A stretch of DNA of 64,000 bases from Luteitalea sp. TBR-22 (lineage in GTDB: Bacteria > Acidobacteriota > Vicinamibacteria > Vicinamibacterales > Vicinamibacteraceae): positions 2,130,501-2,194,500 of the forward strand of contig NZ_AP024452.1 of assembly GCF_016865485.1 (NCBI RefSeq), in the 5' to 3' direction. The position numbers and the translations under genes were made by a program. Every line of letters starts with the position of its first letter. Position 1 is the first letter of the stretch. Positions 10,771 through 30,088 of the stretch are shown here, piece by piece. Below the pieces are notes generated by a model. It was not told the origin of the DNA. It saw only the letters and a program-made list of their open reading frames with translations, and made no database searches.

Positions 10771-11718
10771 TCATGCCGGAACGGTGGAGGCGACCAGGCG
10801 CTTCATGTAGGCGAGGGCCATGGCGGTCGCGCGATCGACCTCCTCGATGCCGGCGACGCGGTGGTCGACCACGCACGGCAGGCAGTACTCGGAGACGAGG
10901 TAGCCGTCGTAGCCGATCCGCTGCAGCTCCGCCAGATAGCGCGCGTAGTTCACCGGACCACCGAACGACGGGCACGGCCCCTGGGCGACGCCGCCATCCG
11001 GCGCGTCGACGAAGTTCCAGGCGCCGTAGTGCGTCAGCAGGACGTGCTCGCCACAGGCCCGGACCGCCTCGGTCATGTAGGCATCGGACTGCCGCTCCTT
11101 GAACAAGGGCGCGTCGAGGCAGGCTCCCACGTTCGGGCGATCGAGCTCGCGGATCATCGCGAGGGTGTCCTCGTAGCCGGGGCGCAGCACCGGGGCGTGG
11201 TTCTGCAGGGCGAGCGTCAGCCCGCGCTCGGCGGCGAGGTCGGCAGTCTCCCGCAGGCCGTCGAGGGCGCGTTGCCATCGGCGGAGGTCGGCCGGGTAGA
11301 GCCGGCTGTAGTAGTTGCCGCGCTCGTACGGCACGTAGGTCGCCGTGTCGTCCTCGTCGTCGACCAGGCCCGGCCAGGCCGCGAAGACCTTGACCAGCGG
11401 CACGCCGAGGTCCACGGCCAGGTCGAGCACCAGGCGCATCATCGCCAGGTTGTTCTCGCGCTCCTCCATCACCGGGCTGGCGAAGTTGGACATGCTCTCG
11501 ATCGCACAGAGCTCGATGCCCTCGCCGTCGGCGGCGGCGCGAACGGCGGCGCGGTCGGCGCGCGTCAGGTCGAGCGGCGAGGCCACCGGACGCTTGGTCT
11601 CGATCGACAGGCCGTCGAAGCCGAGGTGCCGCGCCTTGCGGACCTGTTCGATCAGGCTCAGGGCGGGGCCGTCGTAGAACAAGCCCGCGTACGTCACCGT
11701 CAGCAACCCGAACCTCAC
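10771..11718 (-). CDS. Sugar phosphate isomerase/epimerase (xylose isomerase-like TIM barrel)
   Basis: 315 residues from a GTG at 11718 preceded by GGGAGGCGG at good spacing; frames further upstream are non-coding in character. The sequence shows the AP-endonuclease-2 (xylose isomerase-like) TIM barrel: early strand FGLLTVTYA, GFDGLSIETK, ELCAIESMSNF, then metal-site strands ALQNHAPV, GACLDAPLF, LLTHYGAWNF and DGYLVSEYC with acidic and His ligands. Members include sugar isomerases, epimerases and inosose dehydratases. The sugar substrate cannot be read from sequence. No signal peptide is present, so it is probably cytoplasmic. Confidence 0.8.
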   Translation of the reverse strand: MRFGLLTVTYAGLFYDGPALSLIEQVRKARHLGFDGLSIETKRPVASPLDLTRADRAAVRAAADGEGIELCAIESMSNFASPVMEERENNLAMMRLVLDLAVDLGVPLVKVFAAWPGLVDDEDDTATYVPYERGNYYSRLYPADLRRWQRALDGLRETADLAAERGLTLALQNHAPVLRPGYEDTLAMIRELDRPNVGACLDAPLFKERQSDAYMTEAVRACGEHVLLTHYGAWNFVDAPDGGVAQGPCPSFGGPVNYARYLAELQRIGYDGYLVSEYCLPCVVDHRVAGIEEVDRATAMALAYMKRLVASTVPA

Positions 11719-13114: not shown

Positions 13115-14605
13115 ATGCTGAAGTCCGTCGCCGTCGGCACCCTCCTCGCCCTCCTCGCCCTGGCTCCCAACACCGCCCTGGCACAACCCTCAGACCTGCT
13201 GCTTCCGTCGCAAGCGTCCACGACACGCCCACAGGGTGTGGCGATGGGGCGACGTTCGCGGCCAGTGCGTGTCAGCTTGCCGGCGCTCGCGCGTGAGAGC
13301 ATCAAGCTCGACCTCTTCGACGATGTCGTGGTGACCGTCGACCGCGTGCTGGTCGACCAGCCCGGTCCGGACCGCCTCGTATGGGTGGGCAAGGACGAGT
13401 TCGGCGCGCAGGCCGTCATCACGGTGGCCGCCGGCGTGTTGACCGGCACGGTACACATGCCGTTCGGGATCTTCGAGATCACGCGCGACCCGGGTGGCGA
13501 CTACCGCGTCGTGGAGATCGACCCGGCGGCGTTCCCCACCGAGGATCCCGACGACGCGGCGGCCGGCCTCGACCTCGTGAGCGAGGTCGTCACCGACCCG
13601 GTCGCCAACACCCCGACCGGGGAGTTCAGCCTGACGGGCACGCCCACCGACATCGCCGTGATGATCGTGTGGACCCCGCGGTCGGAGACCGCCGGCGGCG
13701 GTCGCGCCGCGATGGACAGCCTCGCCCTGAACCTCGTGGCCAATGCCAACCAGGTGTACGTCAACAGCGGCGTGAACGTGCGCCTGACGCTGGCCTACGC
13801 TGGCCCCATCAGCTTCACGGAGACCACGAGCGCGAGCACCGACGTGGCCAGCCTGCGGTCGCCGACCGACGGCAAGGCCGACGGCATCCATGCCCTGCGC
13901 GACACGTATGCCGCTGACATCGTGACCATGCTCGGCGAGTACAGCGGCACCGGCTCGTGCGGCTACGGCTACATCATGACCCCGCTCTCCTCGAGCTTCG
14001 CCTCCTCGGCGTTCAACGTCGTGGACCGCGGCTGCTCGCTGGGCAACCTCTCGTACGCCCACGAGGTCGGGCACAACCAGGGGATGCTGCACAACCGCGC
14101 CGACGCGGGCGGCCTGACGCCCTCGCAGCCCTACGCCTACGGCTACCAGGATCCGTCCGGCGCGTTCCGCACGGTGCTGTCCTACGGCTCGATGGTGCGC
14201 ATCCCGTACCTGTCCAGTCCGCTCACGACGTACGGCGGACGTCCCACGGGCACCAGCACCGAGGACAACGCGCGCACGTTGTCCCTGAACGCCGCCACCG
14301 TCGCCGCGTTCAGGGGCGGCTCGACCACGACCACGCCAACCACGTCGCCCTCGTGCACCTACGCGCTGTCGGCCACATCGCTGACGTTTCCGGTGGGTGG
14401 AGGCTCGAAGTCGGTGTCGGTGACCGCTCCGAGCGGCTGCGCCTGGACGGCCACCGAGTCGTCGGGTTGGGTGTCGCTCAACACCACGGGCGGGACCGGC
14501 AGCGGCACGGTGGTCGTCACCACCACCGCCAACGGCAATGGGTCGACCCGCAAGACCACCGTCAAGATCGCCGGACTGAACGTCTCGGTGCGACAGCGCT
14601 ACTGA
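13115..14605 (+). CDS. Secreted zinc metalloprotease with C-terminal BACON-like domain
   Basis: 496 residues from an ATG at 13115; residues 1-23 are a signal peptide (VAVGTLLALLALAPNTALAQ). A propeptide-like region (about 25-175) precedes a reprolysin/metzincin-like catalytic domain starting near IAVMIVWTPRSE. The zinc motif is HEVGHNQGMLH, a perfect HExxHxxGxxH, followed by a likely Met-turn (SYGSMVRIPYLSSP). After a Thr-rich linker, about 85 C-terminal residues form a BACON-like beta-sandwich (CTYALSATSLTFP, GCAWTATESSGWVSL). BACON modules usually bind mucin or carbohydrate, so a substrate-targeted extracellular protease is likely. It has its own terminator and operator-like repeat. Confidence 0.88.
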   Translation: MLKSVAVGTLLALLALAPNTALAQPSDLLLPSQASTTRPQGVAMGRRSRPVRVSLPALARESIKLDLFDDVVVTVDRVLVDQPGPDRLVWVGKDEFGAQAVITVAAGVLTGTVHMPFGIFEITRDPGGDYRVVEIDPAAFPTEDPDDAAAGLDLVSEVVTDPVANTPTGEFSLTGTPTDIAVMIVWTPRSETAGGGRAAMDSLALNLVANANQVYVNSGVNVRLTLAYAGPISFTETTSASTDVASLRSPTDGKADGIHALRDTYAADIVTMLGEYSGTGSCGYGYIMTPLSSSFASSAFNVVDRGCSLGNLSYAHEVGHNQGMLHNRADAGGLTPSQPYAYGYQDPSGAFRTVLSYGSMVRIPYLSSPLTTYGGRPTGTSTEDNARTLSLNAATVAAFRGGSTTTTPTTSPSCTYALSATSLTFPVGGGSKSVSVTAPSGCAWTATESSGWVSLNTTGGTGSGTVVVTTTANGNGSTRKTTVKIAGLNVSVRQRY

Positions 14606-14615
14606 GCGGCACCGC

Positions 14616-14665
14616 GCCCGCACGGCCACCGACGACGACTCCGGTCGTCCGAGGTGGCTGCGGGC
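14616..14665 (+). terminator. Long interrupted hairpin after the metalloprotease gene
   Basis: Three nested pairs of arms (GCCCGCA/TGCGGGC, GCCACC/GGTGGC, GACGAC/GTCGTC) fold into one tall hairpin 10 bp after the stop codon and about 55 bp before the next start. Confidence 0.6.
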
Positions 14666-14719
14666 CCTCACGGTCCTCGCTGGAGCAGGGAACCTGCCCT
14701 GCCGATTGAGGGACTCAGG

Positions 14720-18346
<3,627 letters not shown>

Positions 18347-18412
18347 GCTTGTCGGCTGATCCGACCTGATGGCACACTCGCGCCCGGACCCCTTCAATCC
18401 ACGGAGGCATGC

Positions 18413-19039
18413 GTGCGCACCAGGATCCTCGTCGCCGACGACCACTCGATGGTGGCCGACGGACTCGGACGCATCGTGGCGGATGTGGCCGACCTGCTCG
18501 GCGCTGCGCACGACGGGCGTGAACTGGTGGAGGCCGCCACGCGCCTGAAGCCCGACGTCATCGTGACCGACGTGGAGATGCCTGAACTGAGCGGCATCGA
18601 TGCCATGCGGCACCTCCGGATGGTCGGTTGCACGGCCCGCTTCATCTTCCTGACGATGCACCGATCGCCGGAACTGGCCGCCGAGGCGCTGCGTCTCGGG
18701 GCGTCGGGGTACCTGCTCAAGGAGGATGCGGGCGAGGAACTGCTGGTGGCGATCAAGGCCGTCGTCGGCGGCCGCACCTACCTGACGCCCCGCCTCACCG
18801 CGCACGTGCTGCGGCAGATGGCCGCTCCTCCCGATGCGGTCTCGACGCTGTCGGACCGGCAGCGGCAGGTGTTGCGCCTCGTCGCGCTCGGCAAGCGCAT
18901 GAAGGAGATCGCGTCCGAACTGGACATCTCGGTGCGTACCGTCGAAGGCCACAAGGCGCAGTTGATGGATCGACTCGGCTGCGAGAGCACCGCCGACCTG
19001 GTGCGGATCGCGATCAAGCAGCACATCGTGCCGCAATGA
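18413..19039 (+). CDS. NarL/FixJ-family response regulator
   Basis: 208 residues from a GTG at 18413 preceded by GGAGG at ideal spacing. The receiver (residues 1-120) has DDH at 10-12, phospho-acceptor Asp53 (VTDVEMPELSG) and a Lys in the YLLKEDAG segment. A LuxR-type helix-turn-helix occupies about 140-205 (LSDRQRQVLRLVALGKRMKEIA, SVRTVEGHKAQLMDRLG). It lies 66 bp behind the hybrid kinase and is its probable cognate regulator. Its DNA site is unknown; the three-part element that starts 13 bp after its stop is a candidate target of this or the following receiver system. Confidence 0.9.
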   Translation: MRTRILVADDHSMVADGLGRIVADVADLLGAAHDGRELVEAATRLKPDVIVTDVEMPELSGIDAMRHLRMVGCTARFIFLTMHRSPELAAEALRLGASGYLLKEDAGEELLVAIKAVVGGRTYLTPRLTAHVLRQMAAPPDAVSTLSDRQRQVLRLVALGKRMKEIASELDISVRTVEGHKAQLMDRLGCESTADLVRIAIKQHIVPQ

Positions 19040-19051
19040 GCGGGCGCGCCA

Positions 19052-19118
19052 CCGCGTAGTTTCCGCCGCCTGCTCACGGGGTTCACCGGATGTGCGTCGC
19101 CGCTGCGGCGCCTAGCAT
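19052..19118 (+). promoter_or_regulatory. Three-part promoter-like element, copy A
   Basis: GTAGTTTCC at 19056, GATG at 19089 and TAGCAT at 19113, ending about 50 bp before the receiver-only gene. The GATG-to-TAGCAT offset is exactly 24 bp, as in the copies at 23756 and 28058. TAGCAT may act as a -10 hexamer. Confidence 0.6.
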
Positions 19119-19166
19119 GACTGCGCCCGAGCGGCGATCGTCAAGGGGCGGTCGCCTGACCCCGCC

Positions 19167-19583
19167 ATGCCCCGCTGCCGCGTCGTGCTCGCCGAGGACC
19201 ATGCCCCGATGGCGGCGGTGCTGCGCGCGCTGCTCGGGGAAGTGTTCGACGTCGTGGCGGAGGTCGCCGATGGCGAGGCCCTCCTGGCGCACTCCACGGC
19301 CCTGGCCCCCGACGCCATCGTGTGCGACATCGGCTTGCCGCGCCTGAGTGGCCTTGACGCCGCCGAGCGGCTGCTGGCGCGCGATGCCCACGCCTGCATC
19401 GTGCTCGTGACGATCGACGTCGATCCGTCGTGCGTCAATCGTGCCCTGGCCATCGGGGTGCGCGGCTACGTCGCCAAGCCGGACGCCGGCGAGGAACTGG
19501 TCCCGGCCGTGCTGGCGGCGCTGGCGCGCCGCGTATATCTCTCCTCGAGCGTGCGCCCCGCCCCGCCGTCACGCCATCCGTAA
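19167..19583 (+). CDS. Receiver-only response regulator
   Basis: 138 residues from an ATG at 19167. This is a complete CheY-like receiver: acidic pair ED near residue 10, phospho-acceptor Asp in IVCDIGLPRLSG (about 53), Thr in LVTIDVD and the KPDAGEE loop. The protein ends about 15 residues after the receiver (VYLSSSVRPAPPSRHP), so there is no DNA-binding output. The tail resembles the linker that in neighbours precedes a LuxR domain, so it may be a truncated NarL-type regulator or a phosphate-sink or relay protein. It is preceded by element A, and it is followed by the TonB receptor and ABC-sensor kinase. Confidence 0.82.
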   Translation: MPRCRVVLAEDHAPMAAVLRALLGEVFDVVAEVADGEALLAHSTALAPDAIVCDIGLPRLSGLDAAERLLARDAHACIVLVTIDVDPSCVNRALAIGVRGYVAKPDAGEELVPAVLAALARRVYLSSSVRPAPPSRHP

Positions 19584-19619
19584 CCACGGACTTCGAGCTC
19601 AGCCGGAATCCTTCCGTGG
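19584..19619 (+). terminator. Hairpin after the receiver-only gene
   Basis: CCACGGA and TCCGTGG pair across a 22-nt loop directly after the stop at 19583. A further 7-bp pair (GACAGCG at 19672, CGCTGTC at 19711) lies in the leader of the TonB receptor gene. Both are weak structural predictions. Confidence 0.35.
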
Positions 19620-19729
19620 CTTCGGTGCGTCTCTCCCTCCGAGCCCGGGTCGGTGGACTGCGCGGGGACCTGACAGCGTGTCCTCAATCGTGTAAGTCGA
19701 GCCCGACATTCGCTGTCGAAGATCCCGCC

Positions 19730-21901
19730 GTGTTCAGCCCGAAACGCGAAGCTCGGCGGCCTGTCTCGCGGCGCAGATGGCGCCGGGCCCTGGCCGCAGG
19801 CCTGCTGGTCGCGACGTGCACGATGGCCACCGGCACGGCCATGGCGAGGCAAACGCAGCCGCCATCTGCCGAGCCATCGTCGGAGGCCTCGACGACGACC
19901 ATCCGCGAAGTGGGGGGCAGGCTACTGCTGAGCGACGAGACCGTGGTGGTCGCGCCGGAGCCGGGCGCCGTGGTGCGTGATGCGTCGATTGCCACCAAGG
20001 CCGAGAGTCCGATCCTCGAGACGCCGCGGAGCGTCACGGTCGTCGACAGGCGCACCCTCGACGACCTCGGCGCGCTCAATCTCTCGCAGGCCCATGACTA
20101 CACCGTCGGCCTCACGCCGTTGGACGAGCGAGGCCTTGCCGTGGCGCGAGGATTCCCGATCGACTTCTACGACCTGCGGCGCGACGGGCTGCGCACCTAC
20201 GCCTGGAGCGTGCGCGAAGTCGCGGCGGTCGATCGGGTCCAGTACCTGCGCGGGGCAGCCTCGGTGCTGTACGGTGACGGCAGTCCGGGCGCGCTGGTCA
20301 ACATGGTGCTGAAGAAGCCGCTGCCGGTCGGCCGACGCGAGTTCAGCGGGACCATCGGTGGGGCAGGGCTGCTGCGGGGCACGGCCGACGTCACCGGACC
20401 GATCGCGGCGTCGAGGCGGGTGCGCTACCGGGTGATCGCGGCGGTCGAAGGTCTCGACAACGGCTTCGACAACGACGAGCGCCGCATCAGCCTGCTGCCG
20501 ACGCTGGCCGTGGACATCGGCACGACCGGATCGCTGACCGTGGACACCGAATGGTACCGACAGCGCGGGCGTGCCTACCGCCACCTCGTCCCCGCGACGC
20601 CGTCAGCGCAGCGAGGTGACTTCTCGGGATATCCCTGGGATCTCAACGTGAACGCCCCGGAGGAGGGATGGGTGGGCAGCAACCTGTCCCCGGGCGTGCG
20701 CTACGACGTCGCCCTCGGGCGCAGCGCCAGCCTGCACGCGGCCGGGCGCTACACCCGGATCGACGGCGACATCGAGGGGCAAGGGCTCGTGGGGCTGTCG
20801 GCCGACGGCCGTACGGCCCAGCGCATCGCCTACGACGAGGACAGCACTTGGCACGAGTACCAGACCGACACCTTCGCCGTCAGCACGTTCACGACCGGTC
20901 GCCTCCGGCATCGCCTCGTAACCGGCCTCGAAGCAGGGCTGAGCACGGCCGACCGCTCCATCGCGAGCGGGCCCGCCACGCCGCTGGACGTCACCATGCC
21001 GTCCTATCCCCCACAACTGGCGCCCCCGTCGCGACGTTCCGCGTACGACATCGGGCGGGCCGGCCTGTACGCGAGCGATCAGGTCGGGGTCGGCGGCCGC
21101 GTCACGCTGGTGCCATCGATCCGGTGGAGTCGCATTGCCGTCGACCAGCGGATCGCCGACGGGCAGCAGGCCTCCTCGGCAGACACCGTCGTCAGCCCCG
21201 GCCTCGGCGTGGTCTGGCTGGGTCGGCCGTGGTGGTCGGTCTACGCGAACGCCTCGTCGGGATTCGAGCCGCCGACGCCGGGCCAGTTCGACCCCGATGG
21301 CCGGGCGCTCGCCCCGGCGCGCCACGCGCTGCTCGAAGCCGGCATCAAGGCCGAAGTCGGCCGTCGGCGCCTGAGCGTGACGGCGGCCGGCTTCCACATC
21401 CGACGGACCAACGTCGCGGAGGCGGATGGTCGCGGCGCGTTCCGGCAGATTGGCCAGGCGGAGAGTCGCGGAGTCGAGGTCGAGGCCCTCGGGGCGCTCA
21501 CCTCGTGGCTGTCGGTGCGCAGCGGGTACGCCTGGACGGCGACGGCCATCACGCGCGACGCCACGGGGGCGGAGGGCAACCACCTGCCGAACGCCCCGCG
21601 TCATGCCGCGCACGCGTGGATCACCGCGCGCCTTCCGTGGGGGCAGGGCAGGCCCCTGACCGTGGCCGGCGGGGTGGTCGCGGTGTCGTCCCGCTTCACC
21701 ACGCGCGACAACCTGATTGTCGCGCCAGCCTACCGGCGACTCGACGCATCGGCGTGGTATCGCCCGGGCGATTCGCCCGTCTCGGTGGGCGTCGTCGCGT
21801 TCAACCTCGCCAACACGCGATACGTGACATCGGGCGCCGGCGCCACGTTCGTGGCGGCGCCACTCCGTCGGGTGAGCCTGCAGTGTACGACCACCTTCTG
21901 A
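19730..21901 (+). CDS. TonB-dependent outer-membrane receptor (siderophore-receptor-like)
   Basis: 723 residues from a GTG at 19730, which places a basic N-terminus (KREARRPVSRRRWRR) before a hydrophobic signal core (ALAAGLLVATCTMATGTAMA). The plug domain covers about 80-200 (ILETPRSVTVVDRRTLDDLG, VQYLRGAASVLYGDGSPGALVNMV). The C-terminal 500 residues form the 22-strand barrel and end in an aromatic residue (TTF). The plug style is that of FhuA/FecA-like ferric-siderophore receptors. Substrate is unknown: co-location with a kinase carrying an ABC-type ligand sensor and two porin-like proteins suggests uptake of an organic compound as an alternative to iron. I see no Fur box upstream. Confidence 0.88.
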   Translation: MFSPKREARRPVSRRRWRRALAAGLLVATCTMATGTAMARQTQPPSAEPSSEASTTTIREVGGRLLLSDETVVVAPEPGAVVRDASIATKAESPILETPRSVTVVDRRTLDDLGALNLSQAHDYTVGLTPLDERGLAVARGFPIDFYDLRRDGLRTYAWSVREVAAVDRVQYLRGAASVLYGDGSPGALVNMVLKKPLPVGRREFSGTIGGAGLLRGTADVTGPIAASRRVRYRVIAAVEGLDNGFDNDERRISLLPTLAVDIGTTGSLTVDTEWYRQRGRAYRHLVPATPSAQRGDFSGYPWDLNVNAPEEGWVGSNLSPGVRYDVALGRSASLHAAGRYTRIDGDIEGQGLVGLSADGRTAQRIAYDEDSTWHEYQTDTFAVSTFTTGRLRHRLVTGLEAGLSTADRSIASGPATPLDVTMPSYPPQLAPPSRRSAYDIGRAGLYASDQVGVGGRVTLVPSIRWSRIAVDQRIADGQQASSADTVVSPGLGVVWLGRPWWSVYANASSGFEPPTPGQFDPDGRALAPARHALLEAGIKAEVGRRRLSVTAAGFHIRRTNVAEADGRGAFRQIGQAESRGVEVEALGALTSWLSVRSGYAWTATAITRDATGAEGNHLPNAPRHAAHAWITARLPWGQGRPLTVAGGVVAVSSRFTTRDNLIVAPAYRRLDASAWYRPGDSPVSVGVVAFNLANTRYVTSGAGATFVAAPLRRVSLQCTTTF

Positions 21902-21903
21902 CT

Positions 21904-23763
21904 GTGGGCCGATGGTACGGCGTGTCCGTGCTCCTGCTCGGCGTCGCCCTGGCCTGCGGCCCGCGATCGGCCGTCGCGCAGGCACCGGCACAGCCGCCGG
22001 CCGGCGACGCTCCGGCCATCCTGTTCGTGTCGCCCGACGACCCTGACCGCCCGTACAACCGCGCGTTCGCCGACGGACTCCGGCAGGCGCTCAACGCCGA
22101 CGGGCCGCGGCCGACGCTGTACCGCGAGTCGTTCGATCAGGCCCGCTTCGGGGGCGACCAGTCGTACGTCGCCGAGTTCCGCGACTGGCTGCATCGCAAG
22201 TATCGCCGTCGCCGCATCGACGCCATCGTGGTGCGCCAGCAGGCGACGCTGCAGCTCTTCGAGCGCCGTCCGGACAACCCGTGGAACGACGTCCCCATCG
22301 TGTACAGCACCCTCGGGGCGCTGTCGATCGACATCGCTGCCACCCATCCCACGGCCTCCGGCGTCGTCATGGAGAACCCGCTGCCGCACTTGCTGGACGT
22401 GATCGGCCGCCTGCTGCCCGGCACGCGCCGCATCGCGGTGGTGCGCGGCGCATCGGCGCACGAACTGGTGCGCGAGGCGTGGTGGATACCCCAGATTCGC
22501 GCCCACGGGCTCGAGGTCGAGGATCTCGTCGACCTGCCGATGCCGCGCCTGCTCGCACGACTGGCCGACCTGCCCACCGATACGGTGCCGATCGTGTTCT
22601 CGTTCCAGCAGGATCGGGACGGGCAGTACTACGAACCAGGCGAGGTGGTGCCGCGCCTGGCCAGGGCCGCGTCGCGCCCGCTGTTCACCATCGTCGGCGA
22701 CAACCTGTCGAGCGGCCTGGTGGGAGGTCCGCTCCCCGACTACGCGATCGTCGGGCGGGCGGCCGGGCGCCACGTCCTCGAACGGCTGTCGGGCGCCCCG
22801 CCGCGAACCATGACGGTGCCGGTGTCGGCCTACGTGCCGTCGGTGTTCGACGCCAGGCAACTGGCACGCTGGGGCATCGACGAGGATCGCCTCCCGCCCG
22901 GGAGCCGCGTGCATTCACGGCCACCGAGCCTGTGGCGTGACTACCGCGGCACGGTCATCGGCGCCTTGGCCATCGGCCTGTTCCAGTCGGCCCTGGTCGC
23001 GCTCGTGCTGGTGCAGCGCCATCACCGGGCGCGCGCCCAGGCCGAGCTCCGCGCCAGCTACGTGCGGTTGCAGGACCTGACCGAGCGCCTGCTCACGGCC
23101 CGCGACGAGGAGCGGGCCAGGATCGCTCGCGACCTCCACGACGACCTCGGGCAGCGCATGGCCTCGATCGCGATCGGGCTCGGCCGCGTCCGTCGCGTCG
23201 CTGCCGAACTGGCGCCCTCCGTGGCGGAGGCGATCGGCCAGGTGCAGGCCGACGCCAAGGCGCTGTCGGGCGACCTGCGCGAGCTGTCGCACGACCTCCA
23301 TCCCGGCGCGTTGGAGCACGTCGGCCTCGTCGAGACCCTCCGCGAGCGCTGCGCCGAGCTGGCGTCCGACACCGGCATCGTGGTGCGTCTCCATGCGTCG
23401 GGTGAGTGCCGGGATCTGCCGGCAGCGGTCGCGCTGTGCTTGTACCGGATCGCGCAGGAGGCGCTCCAGAACGTGCGCGTGCACGCGCAGGCGCGACAGG
23501 TGACCGTCACGCTCACGCGCGGCGCCACGCGCGTGCACCTCGAGGTGGCCGACGATGGCCGCGGCATCGGCGAGGCGGGGCGTCGCAGCCGGCGCGGGCT
23601 GGGGCTGACCAGCATCGGTGAGCGGGTGCGACTCCTGTCGGGGACGTTCGACATCCATGGCGTCCCCGGCGAGGGCACGACGATGCACGTGTCGCTGCCG
23701 ATCGAGCCCGCCCCCGTGCCGCCGTCGCCGGTGCCCGTCGAAAAAAATCGCGCCGCCACGTAG
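21904..23763 (+). CDS. Histidine kinase with ABC-substrate-binding-type sensor (HisKA_3)
   Basis: 619 residues from the GTG at 21904, two bases after the receptor stop; a GTG at 21883 inside the receptor gene is an alternative, and either implies coupling. Signal peptide (GVSVLLLGVALACG), then a periplasmic sensor of about 300 residues resembling ABC substrate-binding proteins (ILFVSPDDPDRPYNRAFADG, VPIVYSTLGALSIDI, PLFTIVGDNLSSGLVGG). A transmembrane helix (IGALAIGLFQSALVALVLV) follows, then a coiled linker, HisKA_3 with ARDLHDDLGQRM, and HATPase (EVADDGRGIG, RGLGLTSIGERV). HisKA_3 kinases pair with NarL-type regulators, so the regulator at 18413 or the receiver at 19167 is the natural partner. 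Confidence 0.88.
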   Translation: MGRWYGVSVLLLGVALACGPRSAVAQAPAQPPAGDAPAILFVSPDDPDRPYNRAFADGLRQALNADGPRPTLYRESFDQARFGGDQSYVAEFRDWLHRKYRRRRIDAIVVRQQATLQLFERRPDNPWNDVPIVYSTLGALSIDIAATHPTASGVVMENPLPHLLDVIGRLLPGTRRIAVVRGASAHELVREAWWIPQIRAHGLEVEDLVDLPMPRLLARLADLPTDTVPIVFSFQQDRDGQYYEPGEVVPRLARAASRPLFTIVGDNLSSGLVGGPLPDYAIVGRAAGRHVLERLSGAPPRTMTVPVSAYVPSVFDARQLARWGIDEDRLPPGSRVHSRPPSLWRDYRGTVIGALAIGLFQSALVALVLVQRHHRARAQAELRASYVRLQDLTERLLTARDEERARIARDLHDDLGQRMASIAIGLGRVRRVAAELAPSVAEAIGQVQADAKALSGDLRELSHDLHPGALEHVGLVETLRERCAELASDTGIVVRLHASGECRDLPAAVALCLYRIAQEALQNVRVHAQARQVTVTLTRGATRVHLEVADDGRGIGEAGRRSRRGLGLTSIGERVRLLSGTFDIHGVPGEGTTMHVSLPIEPAPVPPSPVPVEKNRAAT

Positions 23764-23824
23764 TTTCCACGCCTGCCACTCGCGGGGTTGGCCCGATGCT
23801 GCCACGCCCGCCGTTCCCTAGCAT
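23756..23824 (+). promoter_or_regulatory. Three-part promoter-like element, copy B
   Basis: GTAGTTTCC at 23760 (overlapping the kinase stop), GCGGGGTTGGCCCGATG with GATG at 23795, and CCCTAGCATG with TAGCAT at 23819. It ends 60 bp before the porin-like gene. GATG-to-TAGCAT offset is 24 bp. Confidence 0.6.
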
Positions 23825-23883
23825 GGCCTTCATCCCGTGCATGCTGCCGTCGCGGCAGCTCACGCCCGGTGAACGGAGGCAGC

Positions 23884-24885
23884 ATGAGGTGGAACCCTGT
23901 CACGGCAGGTGCGTCGCTCGTGGCCGTGGCCATCGCCTGTGGCGTGGCCGCCGGGCCGGTGCGCGCGCAACTCAACAGCCCCAGCATGCGCGGCGATCTC
24001 GGACTCAAGGCCGGATCGCAGGCACCACCGGGTGGATACGTCTTCGCGCCGCTCTATCTGTACAGCGCTGACGTCCTGAAGGACCGCGCCGGCGACGTCG
24101 TCGCGCGAGGACAGGTGGACAGCGCGCTGTTCGGTGTTGGCGTGTCGGTGGTCACCGCGCGGACCATCGCCGGTGGTACCTACGGCTTCACCGTCGTCAT
24201 CCCCGGTGCCAACAATCGGCTGCAGGGTGGGCGCATCGACGAGGATCCCGGTGCCGGCCTGACCGACATCTTCGTGCAGCCCATCACGCTCGGTTGGCGA
24301 TCGCCCCGCACCGACGTCATCGCCGGGTACGGGCTGTACGTGCCGACCGGACGATTCGGCGACGCCGAGGAAGGCGACACCGGCCTCGGCATGTGGGCGC
24401 ACGAGTTCCTCGCGGGGACGACGGTGTATCTCGATGCGGCGCGCCTCTGGCACGCCGCGACCACGGCGACGTTCGTGGTGCACTCCGACAAGCGCGACAC
24501 CGAACTGCGCGCCGGACCGGTCCTCAACCTCGAAGGCGGCGTCGGCCATGACTTCCTCGGCGGCGGACTGAGCGCGGGCCTTGCCTACTACGCCAGCTGG
24601 AAGGTCGGCGACGACCGGCTTCCGCCGCGGGCCGATGTGCTGGTGAGGGGACGCAACCGCGTGTTCGCCGTCGGCCCCGAGGTCTCGATGGCCCTGGCCT
24701 GGAAGCGCACTGTCTACGGATCGGTGACGGCCCGTTACCAGTGGGAGACGGGCGCCCGCGTTGCCACCGAGGGTGGCGCGTTCAACCTCCTGGTCAACGT
24801 GCTGATGCGCCCGCTGCACCTGCCCGCCCCGTCGGCGCCCGCGTCGCGGTCGTCGTTGAGCGGAACGCGTGGGGGCCGGTCATGA
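23884..24885 (+). CDS. Outer-membrane transporter-like protein (phenol_MetA_deg/SphA-like)
   Basis: 333 residues from an ATG at 23884 with GGAGG six bases upstream. Signal peptide to about residue 27 (GVAAGPVRAQ). The mature part is a series of amphipathic beta-strands with alternating aromatic and Gly residues (GGYVFAPLYLYSADVL, IAGGTYGFTVVIPGANNRL, VIAGYGLYVPTGRF, GTTVYLDAARLWHAATTATFVV), typical of the family often called the putative MetA pathway of phenol degradation, found as porin-like barrels beside degradation or uptake genes. Its stop overlaps the next start (ATGA), so the two barrel proteins are translationally coupled. Element B lies just upstream. Confidence 0.78.
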   Translation: MRWNPVTAGASLVAVAIACGVAAGPVRAQLNSPSMRGDLGLKAGSQAPPGGYVFAPLYLYSADVLKDRAGDVVARGQVDSALFGVGVSVVTARTIAGGTYGFTVVIPGANNRLQGGRIDEDPGAGLTDIFVQPITLGWRSPRTDVIAGYGLYVPTGRFGDAEEGDTGLGMWAHEFLAGTTVYLDAARLWHAATTATFVVHSDKRDTELRAGPVLNLEGGVGHDFLGGGLSAGLAYYASWKVGDDRLPPRADVLVRGRNRVFAVGPEVSMALAWKRTVYGSVTARYQWETGARVATEGGAFNLLVNVLMRPLHLPAPSAPASRSSLSGTRGGRS

Positions 24886-25730
24886 CCGGCCATGTGATCG
24901 CCTCGCGCGTGCGCGCGGCGGCATGGCTGGGCATCGCCCTGCTGACGGGCACTGTGGCCCGCGCGCAGTCACCAGCGCCGGCGACCCCTGCCACCGATGC
25001 GGCGGCCCTCGCCAAGGCGACGCAGAACCCGGTCGCGGCGCTCACGACGATCCCCTTTCAGGTGAACTTCAACTCGGGTGGTGACCTTGGCGACGCCAGC
25101 GCGCTCAACGTCAACGTGCAACCGGTCATCCCGTTCCGCCTCACCGACGGGATCAACGTGATTGCCAGGACGATCGTGCCGATCAACAGCGTGCCGGGGC
25201 CGGAGTCCACGCGCTTCAGCGGGCTCGGCGACGTGCAGGCGCAGGTCTTCTTCACGCCCTCGCGTCCGGGTGCCCTCACGTGGGGCATCGGACCGGTGTT
25301 CTCGCTGCCCACCGCCACGGCCGCGCCCTTCGAGACCGGGACGTGGGCCGCAGGGCTCGGCGTCGTCGTGGTGCGCAACGCGGGCCCGTTCGTCATCGGC
25401 GCGCTGGTGAGCCAGTACTGGCCGGTGAGCGACGGCGGTGATGCGCCCGAAACGCACCTGCTCACCGCGCAGCCCTTCGTGAACTACAACTTCGGGGCCG
25501 GATGGGCGCTTTCGTTCGCACCGCTCATCACGGGCAACTGGGACGCCCCCAGCGGCGACGAGTGGACGGTGCCGCTCGGCCTCGGCATCGTGCGCACCAC
25601 GGTGTTCAACGGCCGACCGATGAACCTCGGCGTGCAGTACTACCGCAACGTCGAGCGTCCACTCGGCAGCCCGGGCCACCAGGTGCGCTTCACCGTCGCC
25701 TTGCTGTATCCGCAGCAACGCACGCGGTGA
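24882..25730 (+). CDS. Second outer-membrane transporter-like barrel protein
   Basis: 282 residues from an ATG at 24882 inside the previous stop. Signal peptide (WLGIALLTGTVARAQ), then barrel strands (IPFRLTDGINVIARTIVPIN, GDVQAQVFFTPSRPG, LTWGIGPVFSLPTATA, FVIGALVSQYWPVSD), ending VRFTVALLYP. It belongs to the same broad class as its upstream partner but is shorter and diverged. Tandem coupling suggests they act on the same substrate or form a mixed assembly. Substrate unknown. Confidence 0.75.
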   Translation: MTGHVIASRVRAAAWLGIALLTGTVARAQSPAPATPATDAAALAKATQNPVAALTTIPFQVNFNSGGDLGDASALNVNVQPVIPFRLTDGINVIARTIVPINSVPGPESTRFSGLGDVQAQVFFTPSRPGALTWGIGPVFSLPTATAAPFETGTWAAGLGVVVVRNAGPFVIGALVSQYWPVSDGGDAPETHLLTAQPFVNYNFGAGWALSFAPLITGNWDAPSGDEWTVPLGLGIVRTTVFNGRPMNLGVQYYRNVERPLGSPGHQVRFTVALLYPQQRTR

Positions 25731-25802
25731 GGACCCCGATGGTGCAAGGGACCGTCGTCGGCGCTGCCATGCCGCCCTGCTCGGGAAAGGAATGAGCCTG
25801 CA

Positions 25803-27224
25803 ATGTCCAGTCACGCCCACCCGATCACGCTGATCCTGCTGCTCGCCGTTGCTTCGTCGGGCTTGCCCGGCCGCGCCCAGCGCGACGGAGCCGCGCCCGC
25901 GGTCGGCCCGGCGGAGGCACGCCAACTCGCGAAGGAAGCCGTGCTGTTCGGCTTCCCGATCGTCGAGAACTACCGGATCCAGTACTCCTACTTCGTCGAC
26001 ACCTCGAGTTCCGACTACAAGGGCCCGTACAACGAGCTGGTCAACATCCCGCGCGTGTACACGCCGGCGGACCGCGCGATCCAGACGCCGAACTCCGACA
26101 CACCCTACTCCTGGGTCGGCCTCGATCTCCGCACCGAGCCCATCGTGGTGACGGTGCCGCCGATCGAGGAGGGGCGGTACTGGAGTCTGCAGCTGATCGA
26201 TCTGTACACGCACAACTTCGACTATCTCGGCAGCCGGACCACCGGGAACGATGGCGGCAGCTTCGCCATCGCCGGACCGGGGTGGCAGGGCGAGACTCCG
26301 CCGGGTATCGAGCGCGTGATCCGGTCGGAGACCGCACTGGCTTCGGCGCAGTTCCGCACGCAGCTCTTCGCACCAGACGATCTCGCGAAGGTCAAGGCGA
26401 TTCAGGCCAGGTACACCGTGCAGCCGCTGTCGGCGTTCCTGCGGCGACCATCACCGCCGCCCGCGCCGCCGCTGACCTTCACGCCGCCCCTGCGCGCCGG
26501 CGACCGTCAGTCGCTGCAGTTCTTCACCGTGCTGAACTTCCTGCTGCAGTTCTGCCCGCCGCACCCCACCGAAGTCGCGCTCCGCGGGCGGCTGGCGCGC
26601 ATCGGCGTGGCGGCTGGCAGGCCGTTCGACGTCGCCGCCCTCGCGCCGGAGATGCGCGAGGCGCTCGCGGCCGGCATGGCCGACGCCTGGCAGGCGTTCG
26701 ACACCTTCAAGCGGGAGCAGATCGACACCGGCAAGAAGAACGCCGCGGATGCCTTCGGTACCCGCGAGTTCCTCGCCAACAACTACATGTTCCGCTTCTC
26801 GGCCGCCGTCCTGGGCATCTACGGCAACTCGCGGGAAGAGGCGCTGTACCCGGCCTATTGGGTCGACGCCGACGGCAAGCCGCTCGCCGGCACGCACCGC
26901 TACCAACTGCGCTTCGGCCCCGGCCAGTTGCCGCCGGTCCACTCGTTCTGGTCACTGACGCTCTATCAGTTGCCGGAGAGCTTGCTGTACGCCAATCCGC
27001 TGGAGCGCTACCTGATCAACTCGGCGATGCTGCCGGGGCTGGCCCGCGACCCGGACGGCGGCATCACGCTCTACATCCAGCACGAGTCCCCGGGCCCCGG
27101 CAAGGAATCGAATTGGCTGCCTGCGCCCGCCGGGCCCTTCTGGACCACCCTGCGCCTCTACTGGCCCAGGCCCGAGGCGCTGTCGGGCGCGTGGACGCAA
27201 CCGCCGCTGCGGCGCGTCGATTGA
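25803..27224 (+). CDS. Exported DUF1254/DUF1214 domain protein
   Basis: 473 residues from an ATG at 25803 after a 72-bp gap; signal peptide residues 1-23 (ITLILLLAVASSGLPGRAQ). The N-terminal half is DUF1254-like (EAVLFGFPIVENYRIQ, YNELVNIPRVYTPADRAIQTPNSD, SWVGLDLRTEPIVVTVPP) and the C-terminal quarter is DUF1214-like (PPVHSFWSLTLYQLPESLLYAN, GGITLYIQHESPG). These proteins are widespread in environmental bacteria and are often near porins and oxidative-degradation genes; no enzymatic activity is established. Placement behind the two barrel proteins suggests the same regulon. Confidence 0.85.
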   Translation: MSSHAHPITLILLLAVASSGLPGRAQRDGAAPAVGPAEARQLAKEAVLFGFPIVENYRIQYSYFVDTSSSDYKGPYNELVNIPRVYTPADRAIQTPNSDTPYSWVGLDLRTEPIVVTVPPIEEGRYWSLQLIDLYTHNFDYLGSRTTGNDGGSFAIAGPGWQGETPPGIERVIRSETALASAQFRTQLFAPDDLAKVKAIQARYTVQPLSAFLRRPSPPPAPPLTFTPPLRAGDRQSLQFFTVLNFLLQFCPPHPTEVALRGRLARIGVAAGRPFDVAALAPEMREALAAGMADAWQAFDTFKREQIDTGKKNAADAFGTREFLANNYMFRFSAAVLGIYGNSREEALYPAYWVDADGKPLAGTHRYQLRFGPGQLPPVHSFWSLTLYQLPESLLYANPLERYLINSAMLPGLARDPDGGITLYIQHESPGPGKESNWLPAPAGPFWTTLRLYWPRPEALSGAWTQPPLRRVD

Positions 27225-27284
27225 ACACCGCTGGTCACCTTCCTCCGGATCGGCCCTCGTCACGGAAGCAGCAAGGGGATTGAC

Positions 27285-28028
27285 ATGCATACGCACACCC
27301 TCGCAACGACCGCCTCATGGCGAGGCGCGATCGAGCCCAGGCGCCGGTTGCAGCGGAAGGGCATCGCGGCGGCCATGGTCGCGCACGAACTGGCGCAACC
27401 GCTCGCGGCGTTGATGGCCAACCTCGACGCGGCGGCGCATCACCTTCGCTGCGACCCGGTGTCGCTCGACGGGGTCCGCGAGGTGTTCGCCGACCTGGCG
27501 GCAGACGTCGCGCGGGCCGACGCCATCGTGCGTCACGTCCTGGCGCTGGTGCGCGATGAGCGGACGGAGCGATCCGACATCGGCGTGGCCGAGTGGCTGG
27601 TCGGTTGTGCAGAGCGGCACGCGCGACCGGCCGCGACGTCTGGCATCGGCATCGCGGTGCGATGCGGACGCGATCTACGCGTGCGCGGCGACCTTGTGCA
27701 ACTCGAGCGCGTCGTCGACAACCTCGTCGTCAACGCGTTGCACGCCCTGTCGGGGGCGCGCGACCGGGGCCAGGTGGTGATCGAGGCGCGGGAGGCAGCC
27801 GGCGAACTCGTGATCACGGTGGCCGACAACGGCCCGGGCTTTCCGGCGGCCGTCCTGGCCTACCCGGCTGGTCTGGCCACGACCAAGCGCGATGGATCCG
27901 GGCTCGGCCTCGCAGTGGCGGCCAGGGTGGCGCGGGCCCACGGTGGTCGGCTCGAACTGGCCAATGGCGCGCCCGGCGCCATCGTGACGGTTCGGCTGCC
28001 GACGTCGACGGTGGTTCGCCGCCAGTAG
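27285..28028 (+). CDS. Soluble sensorless histidine kinase (HisKA + HATPase)
   Basis: 247 residues with no membrane segment and no recognisable sensor domain. HisKA begins almost at once with phospho-acceptor His in MVAHELAQPLAALMANLD (about residue 35), followed by the dimer helix (ADAIVRHVLALVRDE). HATPase has an N-box (LERVVDNLVVNALHAL), G1 (VADNGPGFP) and G2 (GSGLGLAVAARV). A closely similar layout recurs at 53443-54288 (LAHELTQPLAALILNAE). Such minimal kinases need a partner or cytosolic signal. It closes the signalling cluster and lies directly in front of element C. Confidence 0.85.
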   Translation: MHTHTLATTASWRGAIEPRRRLQRKGIAAAMVAHELAQPLAALMANLDAAAHHLRCDPVSLDGVREVFADLAADVARADAIVRHVLALVRDERTERSDIGVAEWLVGCAERHARPAATSGIGIAVRCGRDLRVRGDLVQLERVVDNLVVNALHALSGARDRGQVVIEAREAAGELVITVADNGPGFPAAVLAYPAGLATTKRDGSGLGLAVAARVARAHGGRLELANGAPGAIVTVRLPTSTVVRRQ

Positions 28029-28057
28029 CGCCGGCGGTGCCGCCATCGCCACCTCTG

Positions 28058-28125
28058 CCAGGTGATTTCCACATCCATGACCGCGCAACTCCCCCGATGC
28101 GCTGCCGCCGCGCGCCTCGTAGGAT
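28058..28125 (+). promoter_or_regulatory. Three-part promoter-like element, copy C
   Basis: GTGATTTCC at 28062, GATG at 28096 and TAGGAT at 28120. The spacing matches copies A and B (GATG to TAGnAT 24 bp; first to last part 58 bp). It runs directly into the remnant of a peptidyl-prolyl isomerase gene. Confidence 0.55.
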
Positions 28126-28423
28126 GCGCCCACACACCGACGACGCCAGCGCTGAGCAGATTGCCGGCATCTTCGGGGCCCGGTTTGCCGAGGCGATCCG
28201 CGCCGTGCCCGTCGGGCAATGGCAGGGTCCCATCGAGTCACCCTACGGAGCCCACCTCGTGCTGATCACCGGGCGTGCGGACGGGCGAGAGCCGCCGCTC
28301 GAGCACGTGCGCCAGGCGGTGCTGAAAGACTTCCTGATCTTCGGCGTCCCATCGCCCACGGACGTGCCCGCGAGCATCCAGGAGCGTGCCTACACGTCGC
28401 CCATCTGGTACACGCCCGGCTGA
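28124..28423 (+). pseudogene. C-terminal remnant of a parvulin-type peptidyl-prolyl isomerase
   Basis: About 99 codons. From residue 10 the frame reads as the C-terminal end of PpiC/SurA-like isomerases: FGARFAEAIRAVPVGQWQGP, IESPYGAHLVLITGR, LEHVRQAVLKDFL. The last half of a parvulin domain plus tail is present, while the signal peptide, chaperone-like part and first half of the domain are absent. An ATG at 28124 (or 28097) could start translation, but no ribosome binding site is visible and the fragment begins right at the end of element C. The simplest reading is an internal deletion that fused the promoter to the 3-prime end of its gene. Confidence 0.65.
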
Positions 28424-28435
28424 TGCCTGCCGTCG

Positions 28436-30088
28436 CTAGGGCTTGCCGGCCTCCGGCGCCTGGCCGCGGGTGACGGAGTACGGGGTGCCCGCGTTGAAGG
28501 TCGGCATCGCGTCGGCCTGCGCGACGCGGTGGCCGATGAGCGCCATCATGTCGGCCACCGTCCGCGCGCCCTTCCAGTACCAGTCGCGGTAGATGTCGTC
28601 GGACGGCTGGTGGTACCTGGTGGCCTCGAAGGCCTCGAAGCGCTCCTTGAAGGCCGCGCCAGTCTCCACCGGGGAGCCCACCAGCATCAGGCCCGGCACG
28701 CCCCGCTCGGCGAAGGGGAAGTGATCCGACCGGGAGAACACGCCGGCCTCCGGGATCGGGTCGTCCATCGGCGTGATGCCGTAGGCGCGTGCGACCTCCG
28801 CAAACAGCGCTCCCATCGAGTTGAGGGGCGCGCCGTACGCCACCATGTCCTTCACCGGTCCCATGATCTCGGTGCCGATGCCGTCGAGGTTCAGGACGGC
28901 GGCGGTCCTGGCGAGATCCCAGGTGGGATGGGCGACGTAGTGGCGCGAACCCAGCAGGCCGTACTCCTCGGCGGTGAAGGCGATGAACACGAGCGAGCGG
29001 CGGGGGCGTGCCTTTGCTTTCGCGAAGGCCTCGGCCACCGACAGCATCTCGGCCACGCCGATCGCGTTGTCGGCCGCGCCGTTGAACACAGCCTGCCGCA
29101 TCACGCCGAACGCATCGTAGTGGGCCGAGAACACGACGGCCTCGGCGGCCAACGACGGATCGCTGCCCTTGATCACGCCGATCACGTTGGGCGACGTGCC
29201 GTCCTTGCGTGACAACCTGAACTGCACGTCGACCTTCGCGGTGAGCGGAAACGGACGGAACGTCGCGCTGTCGGCTTCGGCGACCGCCTGGGCCAGCGTC
29301 CTGCCCGAGCCGGCCAGCAGCCGCTCGGCGCCCGCCGTGCTGAAGAACATCAACGGCACCGAACTCGGAGCGTCGGTGGTCGGCGCGCTGATGCTCCGTC
29401 GAGCCGTCTGATCGATCACGAACGGCCGTGGGTACAGCCCCCGTCCGCTCGGGATGTTGATGAAGCCGACGATGCCGCGCGCGAGCAGGGTAGGGACCAG
29501 GTCGGCATCCTTGGAGATCTCGTCCCACTTCTGCTGTGTGACGCCGGCCGGCGGGCCGTCCACCACCACCACGATCTTGCCCCGCAGGTCGGCGTCCTTC
29601 AGGTCGTCGCGCCCGAAGGTCTTCGACACCAGTCCGTAGCCCACGAACACCACCGGGGCCGTCGTCTGCAGGTCGGCAAACGTGCCCAGGGTCGACCAGT
29701 CGGTGCCATAGGGGAGATCGACGTCGTCGACCCGCACGTGGGTGGGAGGGACGAACTCGGTGGCCCGCAGGGGCACCTGCTGCAAGTACGAGCCGCCGTC
29801 GCCGCCAGGCGCGAGGCCGAGCCGTTTCATCCGATCGGCGATCCACGCCGCCGCCCGTTCGCCACCCGGCTGGAGGGTGCCGCGGCCCTCCATGCGATCG
29901 CTGGCGAGCGCGGCCGTGGCCTCGCGGATGCTGGATTCCTTCACGCGGCGCACGACATCGCGTTCAGCCGCGGACAGCCCGGCCGGCTGGGCCGATACGG
30001 AACCGCCCGCACCCAGCACGCACAACAGGCCCACCACGAGGCCGCGCAGGTGCCGGCCGGTTCTCCGATGCCTCTTCACATGTTCCAC
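28436..30088 (-). CDS. Exported M28 family metallopeptidase with PA domain
   Basis: 550 residues from a GTG at 30088 (GGAGG seven bases upstream). Signal peptide to about residue 34 (LVVGLLCVLGAGGSVSAQ). A PA-domain-like insert runs about 130-250 (VFVGYGLVSKTFGRDDLKDADL). Metal ligands of the di-zinc core appear in FSAHYDAFGV, NGAADNAIGVAE, FTAEEYGLLGSRHY, VLNLDGIGTE and EATRYHQPSDD. It is similar in design to the peptidase at 9127-10692 but has a different insert and active-site loops. Convergent with the isomerase remnant, 12 bp apart. Confidence 0.88.
   Translation of the reverse strand: MEHVKRHRRTGRHLRGLVVGLLCVLGAGGSVSAQPAGLSAAERDVVRRVKESSIREATAALASDRMEGRGTLQPGGERAAAWIADRMKRLGLAPGGDGGSYLQQVPLRATEFVPPTHVRVDDVDLPYGTDWSTLGTFADLQTTAPVVFVGYGLVSKTFGRDDLKDADLRGKIVVVVDGPPAGVTQQKWDEISKDADLVPTLLARGIVGFINIPSGRGLYPRPFVIDQTARRSISAPTTDAPSSVPLMFFSTAGAERLLAGSGRTLAQAVAEADSATFRPFPLTAKVDVQFRLSRKDGTSPNVIGVIKGSDPSLAAEAVVFSAHYDAFGVMRQAVFNGAADNAIGVAEMLSVAEAFAKAKARPRRSLVFIAFTAEEYGLLGSRHYVAHPTWDLARTAAVLNLDGIGTEIMGPVKDMVAYGAPLNSMGALFAEVARAYGITPMDDPIPEAGVFSRSDHFPFAERGVPGLMLVGSPVETGAAFKERFEAFEATRYHQPSDDIYRDWYWKGARTVADMMALIGHRVAQADAMPTFNAGTPYSVTRGQAPEAGKP

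Follow-up and report, generated by a model that had tools for sequence, protein, structure and literature searches.

A putative FixJ-like operator-promoter present three times in a signalling cluster of Luteitalea sp. TBR-22

FixJ-type sites and the Luteitalea elements

Among the closest known counterparts of the system treated here are the nitrogen-fixation circuits of rhizobia. Systematic evolution of ligands by exponential enrichment (SELEX) with rhizobial FixJ yielded GTAGTTTCCC and GTAMGTAG, and FixJ footprints at fixK extend from −69 to −44 and from −57 to −31, as given in the part of the study available to us (PMC4999443). A further component of such circuits is FixT, presented in the accessible text of PMC7078487 as a receiver-only inhibitor of FixL autophosphorylation in Caulobacter, with cysteines at positions 53, 56, 59 and 64 whose spacing is absent from FixT outside Caulobacter. 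This work concerns three promoter-like elements, E1, E2 and E3, in a 64,000-nucleotide stretch of Luteitalea sp. TBR-22 (contig NZ_AP024452.1, positions 2,130,501 to 2,194,500), hereafter called the window; the host genome is a single contig of 6.47 Mb, and the window has a G+C content of 71%. These elements most likely represent an operator-promoter of a known kind, since their core agrees with the FixJ-binding site, and they would be a new example of this gene switch far from rhizobia.

Each element combines GTRRTTTCC, GATG and TAGNAT, a three-part pattern that an initial annotation of the sequence had described and whose coordinates and offsets were borne out when the sequence was re-read. 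GATG starts at 19089 (E1), 23795 (E2) and 28096 (E3) and precedes TAGNAT by 24 base pairs (bp) in all three, while the first part stands 57, 59 and 58 bp ahead of the last. Within the first block, box 1, the core is GTAGTTTCC at 19056 in E1 and at 23760 in E2, and GTGATTTCC at 28062 in E3; the FixJ-type core GTAGTTTCCC, one of the two SELEX classes, is thus matched by an exact GTAGTTTCC in two elements and by a variant in the third. The first copy begins at 19052, 13 bp past the last base (19039) of the NarL-type regulator gene that starts at 18413, its box 1 lying 15 bp past that end, and the second overlaps the stop codon of a histidine kinase gene ending at 23763, both as previously noted.

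Comparison of E1 with E2 places the similarity in the parts themselves: identity is 10/10 in box 1, 9/12 directly ahead of GATG, 4/4 in GATG and 9/9 around TAGCAT, against 4/12 and 4/18 in the spacers, 9/20 upstream and 11/40 downstream. Conservation is therefore limited to the parts of the element, the spacers and downstream flanks being close to the chance identity of 0.30. Between 14654 and 28423, the elements occupy three of the four inter-gene gaps of at least 90 bp, and the fourth (19584–19729) has no match to the pattern. An Rfam search of 14000–30000 returned no match.

A genome-wide search found GTRRTTTCCN{40,50}TAGNAT three times, at E1, E2 and E3, all within a 9-kb stretch, with no match for reversed-pattern controls. 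GTAGTTTCC occurs twice in the genome, in E1 and E2 (four matches for the reversed control), and GTRRTTTCC 24 times, three of them here (control, 12). Across 200 dinucleotide-shuffled versions of the window, the mean number of matches was 0.23 for GTRRTTTCC and 0.0 for the composite, compared with three observed for each. Measured against a consensus built from E1 and E2 only, E3 has mismatches at 5 of 23 positions, and as a third match it ranks ahead of every other window place; places as good occurred 0.05 times per window in 100 shuffles, with a maximum of one. E3 is weaker than the other two yet beyond chance, and the element is genuine and specific to this cluster. The strict pattern CGTAGTTTCCN{35,55}CTAGNATG matched in one of 396 genomes of the phylum, that of the host. 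A looser pattern was set aside: it matched in 6 of 60 relatives including the host, the other five with one match each, compared with two genomes carrying a control match, which was taken as chance.

Comparable promoters beside regulator homologues

The product of 18413 has a receiver and a C-terminal GerE helix-turn-helix (HTH) domain in Pfam and so belongs to the NarL/FixJ response regulator family. Among PDB chains, its HTH is closest to EL222 (4.4e-11), a light-regulated LOV-HTH protein without a receiver domain, and then to FixJ (1x3u, 9.2e-11). In a search of the 396 genomes, 39 gave matches to the regulator at E ≤ 1e-42. Twenty-four loci were read by eye (20 of the 30 from this search, together with L034, L043, L046 and L054; genomes, contigs and loci carry our working codes), and L076–L085 were scanned by pattern, the same loci minus L077 also by profile.

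Reading by eye revealed a GTAG/GTAA-type block ahead of a TA...T hexamer in the window and at G200:C34, G193:C85, G193:C169 and G291:C219. Behind the regulator homologues at the first three of these outside loci (51, 49 and 43% identical), a CGTAG-type promoter follows 42, 11 and 9 bp past the stop codon, versus 15 bp in the window. At all three, a second box, GTARTYNNMCKAGG, stands 23 bp past box 1 and 37 bp ahead of the hexamer that would serve as the −10. The distance from box 1 to the hexamer, about 60 bp in these genomes, is 58, 60 and 59 bp in E1, E2 and E3, the E3 box reading GGTGA. The CGTAG box and the TA...T hexamer are thus kept at the same distance in other genomes, and GATG is not. 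The window shares with them box 1, the length from box 1 to the hexamer and the type of hexamer; where they have box 2, it has the GATG block as a feature of its own. The earlier proposal of GATG as a constant promoter component in a common element is not supported: it sits where box 2 ends elsewhere, and its block misfits box 2.

A profile (R1) built from E1–E3 together with three of the sites in other genomes was run on 21 chosen genomes. Below E 1e-3 it recovered the six sites used for training and added three, the additions all lying in G193 (4.2e-5, 3.7e-4 and 4.0e-4); two of these lie on the regulator's contig, and the new sites stand ahead of OmpA, AI-2E_transport and Lyase_1/FumaraseC_C genes. 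The six sites outside the window align without gaps. One of those behind the G193 regulators precedes a small protein gene and another a receiver-only gene, while the G200 site precedes an MGH1-like/GH63 gene. R1 found no site below 0.1 in G001, G004 and G005, which share the genus or family of the host, and these three genomes have no relative of the kinase at E ≤ 1e-60 or of the DUF1254 protein at E ≤ 1e-100. Some match at E ≤ 1 was present in 16 of the 21 genomes, mostly weak, and those at E 0.03–1 in other genomes were taken as weak or as noise.

A second profile (R2), built only from the six sites outside the window and applied to 322 genomes with stricter filters, gave matches at E ≤ 0.01 in five genomes, including a further G200 site (C229, 1.8e-4). 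This site has GGTAGTTTCCCGAGG at the box 2 position, lacks box 1 and precedes another receiver-only gene; because the ends of the two contigs of G200 are identical over 99 bases, it probably follows the same regulator locus. R2 matches at E 0.003–0.006, in G297, G291 and G237, were considered weak or noise, as was the window place 7204–7251; the G291 match (C219:11440), which reads CGTAATTCCACTAGG with TAATCT, may nonetheless be real because it is on that regulator's contig. Among 127,810 window places, flexible-spacing matrices built from the six non-window sites gave E1 the top rank and E2 the third, a ranking that comes from box 1 and the hexamer.

A receiver-only gene follows such a site in the window, at G193:C169, at G200:C229 and, behind a weaker site, at G291:C219. 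The layout of regulator, its site and receiver-only gene hence recurs in part of the homologues, which suggests feedback. The G193:C169 receiver-only protein (L046) has Glu in place of the presumed phosphoryl-accepting Asp of its relatives (VELTL versus VDLSL). In the host genome, a second regulator/receiver-only pair (L054, 6248–6356, at about 5768 kb) carries a different block, TCAGTTCTTACAGTTC, 36 bp ahead of TACGCT, and GGGAGTC and GGCGTTC short repeats lie directly past another NarL-type regulator gene (L055, about 6650–6745, at about 4874.7 kb).

Further places were observed beyond these loci. On the minus strand of the window, 54482–54440 reads CGTAGTTTTTTCG and, 23 bp on, CGTGTAATTTCACG, ahead of a HisKA/HATPase_c kinase gene (54288–53443); it resembles a two-box site, with no clear −10 where one is expected. 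In plasmid neighbourhoods of DUF1254 relatives (L048–L051) and kinase relatives (L052 and L053), no E1-like site was recognised. In L051, GTAGTTTCC and GTAATTTCC each occur once, the former on the minus strand within an annotated DUF481 gene and the latter within an annotated HAD-hydrolase gene. On a Microvirga plasmid (L052), GTAATTTCC also occurs at 10837, in the gap after the gene of a distant kinase relative.

Proposed regulator binding and its rivals

Taken together, these observations make it likely that E1–E3 are activator-dependent promoters bound at box 1 by the phosphorylated 18413 regulator. Three claims of the initial annotation gain support, short of proof, from the same data: the first block as operator, TAGCAT as the −10 and 18413 as the likely binder. 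The support comes from the identity of the first block with the FixJ SELEX consensus GTAGTTTCCC in the available part of PMC4999443, from the closeness of the 18413 HTH to EL222 and FixJ and from the similar promoters behind homologues of the regulator in two genomes. The common-target interpretation is supported in these respects, but not as to GATG as its fixed common part.

Several results weigh against this reading. Only 5 of the 24 loci read by eye have the site, the window among them, and G311, with homologues of the kinase, the regulator, the outer-membrane protein (OMP) and the DUF1254 protein, has no such box. The window lacks box 2 at 23 bp past box 1, the second block of its sites scoring negative against that box, and this block precedes the −10 by 36 bp rather than 37. 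With default filters R2 misses all three elements and reports one window match, 7226–7249, inside a coding frame (E 0.0037); unfiltered, it gives partial matches at E1, E2 and E3 of noise level (E 0.68, 3.4 and 1.1), and across the host genome it finds nothing at E ≤ 0.01. R1 does not report the L067 site of G291. In the matrix ranking E3 comes only 41st of 127,810. Receiver-only genes follow the regulator homologues L054 (in the host genome), L061 and L071 without a site. As a whole protein, 18413 is nearest to VraR and nearer also to DesR and NarL, with FixJ 13th of 35 sequences, and the EL222 DNA containing GGTAGGATCC was bound more loosely than DNA without the motif (13 µM versus 2.4 µM) in the available part of PMC8278059. 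In the host genome itself the regulator has 24 matches at E ≤ 1e-10, 18413 counted, so another such protein could bind.

This last possibility, that the elements belong to another NarL-type regulator of the genome, is also favoured by the fact that three of the ten cluster genes encode kinases. It is nevertheless improbable, as 18413 is the sole receiver-plus-HTH gene of the ten by Pfam, ends directly ahead of the E1 box and has homologues that adjoin similar sites elsewhere. Alternatively, the elements could be promoters of an alternative sigma factor, in which GATG-N20-TAGNAT forms the −35 and −10 and box 1 is incidental or a secondary upstream element. The GATG-to-hexamer distance is constant whereas box 1 shifts by 2 bp, and a search of 18000–28600 for sigma-70-type sites found none, both of which suit such a reading; the uniqueness of box 1 to E1 and E2 in the genome, and the retention elsewhere of the box-to-hexamer distance without GATG, make it unlikely. 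Chance, or duplicated intergenic DNA with no regulatory meaning, could be argued from the weakness of E3, from an own-genome set of just three sites and from the failure of R2 to detect them, yet the shuffles, the genome-wide counts and the confinement of conservation to spaced blocks with near-chance flanks render it very improbable.

Under the preferred reading, regulation by 18413, we infer binding, activation, start sites, operon extents and feedback as follows. The phosphorylated regulator would bind box 1 (CGTAGTTTCC) about 61–72 bp upstream of the predicted start, with the main operator near −67, and may also touch the DNA at a further, degenerate site close to −35 (CGGGGTT..GATG). It would then recruit RNA polymerase to the TAGNAT −10, which lacks a good −35. 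E1 would render the receiver-only protein, the TonB receptor and the kinase inducible, so that the kinase would close a positive loop, with the receiver-only protein as a possible partner in feedback. E2 would drive the two OMP genes, the DUF1254 gene and the second kinase gene, and E3 may formerly have driven a peptidyl-prolyl isomerase (PPIase)/DUF3604 unit whose 5′ part has since been deleted.

The gene cluster and its likeness to described circuits

The coordinates of the elements and of the cluster genes are collected in Table 1.

Table 1. Elements E1–E3 and genes of the signalling cluster (window positions; roles of the −10 hexamers are predicted)
Feature	Position	Strand	Remarks
Hybrid kinase with Reg_prop repeats	14654–18346	–	Pfam: no strand given
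NarL/FixJ-type response regulator, proposed binder of E1–E3	18413..19039	+	Pfam: Response_reg 1.3e-21, GerE 3.2e-17
E1 box 1, CGTAGTTTCC	19055..19064	+	FixJ-like core, at about −70 to −61 relative to the predicted start
E1 second block, CGGGGTTCACCGGATG	19077..19092	+	Ends in GATG; box 2 position of other genomes; poor fit to box 2
E1 predicted −10, TAGCAT	19113..19118	+	Putative role
Receiver-only protein	19167..19583	+	First gene past E1; Pfam: Response_reg 3.5e-19, no second family
TonB-dependent receptor	19730..21901	+	Pfam; start codon uncertain
Histidine kinase, HisKA_3/HATPase_c	21886..23763	+	Pfam; likely partner of the 18413 regulator
E2 box 1, CGTAGTTTCC	23759..23768	+	TAG in this box serves as stop codon of the kinase gene
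E2 second block, CGGGGTTGGCCCGATG	23783..23798	+	
E2 predicted −10, TAGCAT	23819..23824	+	Putative role
Phenol_MetA_deg family protein	23884..24885	+	Pfam; outer-membrane type
Second protein of the OMP pair	24882..25730	+	No Pfam match; outer-membrane type is the label of the initial annotation
DUF1254/DUF1214 protein	25803..27224	+	Pfam
Second histidine kinase, HisKA/HATPase_c	27285..28028	+	Pfam
E3 box 1, GGTGATTTCC	28061..28070	+	Weaker copy
E3 second block, CGCAACTCCCCCGATG	28084..28099	+	
E3 predicted −10, TAGGAT	28120..28125	+	Putative role; overlaps the ATG of the remnant
Gene remnant	28124..28423	+	Pfam: C-terminal PPIC (63–121 of 121) joined in frame to C-terminal DUF3604 (560–591 of 591, last 32 positions)

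Kinase homologues adjoin regulator homologues at many of the neighbourhoods compared. The best kinase relative in the named genome collection, one of five found, comes from an Acidobacteria metagenome-assembled genome (37% over 212 residues); among the 396 phylum genomes, the host counted, relatives were found in six for the kinase (E ≤ 1e-60) and in nine for the DUF1254 protein (E ≤ 1e-100). The 24882 product has a 26% match next to a DUF1254 homologue in locus L039. The gap ahead of the TonB receptor gene, the sole large one without an element, contains an inverted repeat, CCACGGA...TCCGTGG, at 19584–19619.

The gene behind E3 had been read as a decayed isomerase gene. A C-terminal part of PPIC is indeed present, but it is joined to the end of DUF3604 and is thus a deletion remnant; the gene has lost its front part, and E3 is probably left over, orphaned and no longer driving a functional gene. 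In G311, a DUF3604-like start, recognised by eye only, also follows DUF1254. A literature search pairing DUF1254 with DUF3604 found no paper. The elements provide a concrete operator candidate for a NarL/FixJ regulator far from rhizobia, tied to a cluster in which two families of unknown function occur, DUF1254 and, as a remnant, DUF3604.

A broader proposal is that several lineages of the Acidobacteriota have a circuit like that of FixJ. In it a NarL/FixJ regulator would work through FixJ-consensus promoters, and its common target would be a single-domain receiver exerting feedback on its own kinase. This generalisation is speculative and rather doubtful; if true, it would establish a FixLJ-FixT-like loop outside Proteobacteria, connected to surface and glycan genes.

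Comparison with EL222 rests on its HTH, the nearest to that of 18413 among solved structures, and on one of its DNAs, which starts with GGTAGGATCC, similar to CGTAGATCC at G193:C169, in the part of PMC8278059 available. The likeness to FixT lies in the arrangement, a receiver-only protein in a FixJ-type circuit there and a receiver-only gene behind a FixJ-like site here. The cysteines differ: those of the 19167 receiver are at 4, 53, 77 and 89, without the spacing that the available text gives for Caulobacter FixT. Unlike FixLJ, the 21886 kinase gave only HisKA_3/HATPase-type families in Pfam and no sensor domain, and the likely targets are receiver, TonB, OMP and DUF1254 genes rather than fixK. 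On inspection, the imperfect-palindrome arms TAAG...CTTA of fixK are replaced by CGCG/GCCG, CACG/ACGC and CAGG/ACAT in E1, E2 and E3. With the FixJ-fixK system of rhizobia, as far as the available text of PMC4999443 describes it, the window shares a regulator of the receiver-GerE type and the core GTAGTTTCC(C); if TAGNAT is the −10, box 1 would fall at about −72 to −61 from predicted starts, against the footprints of −69 to −44 and −57 to −31 at fixK.

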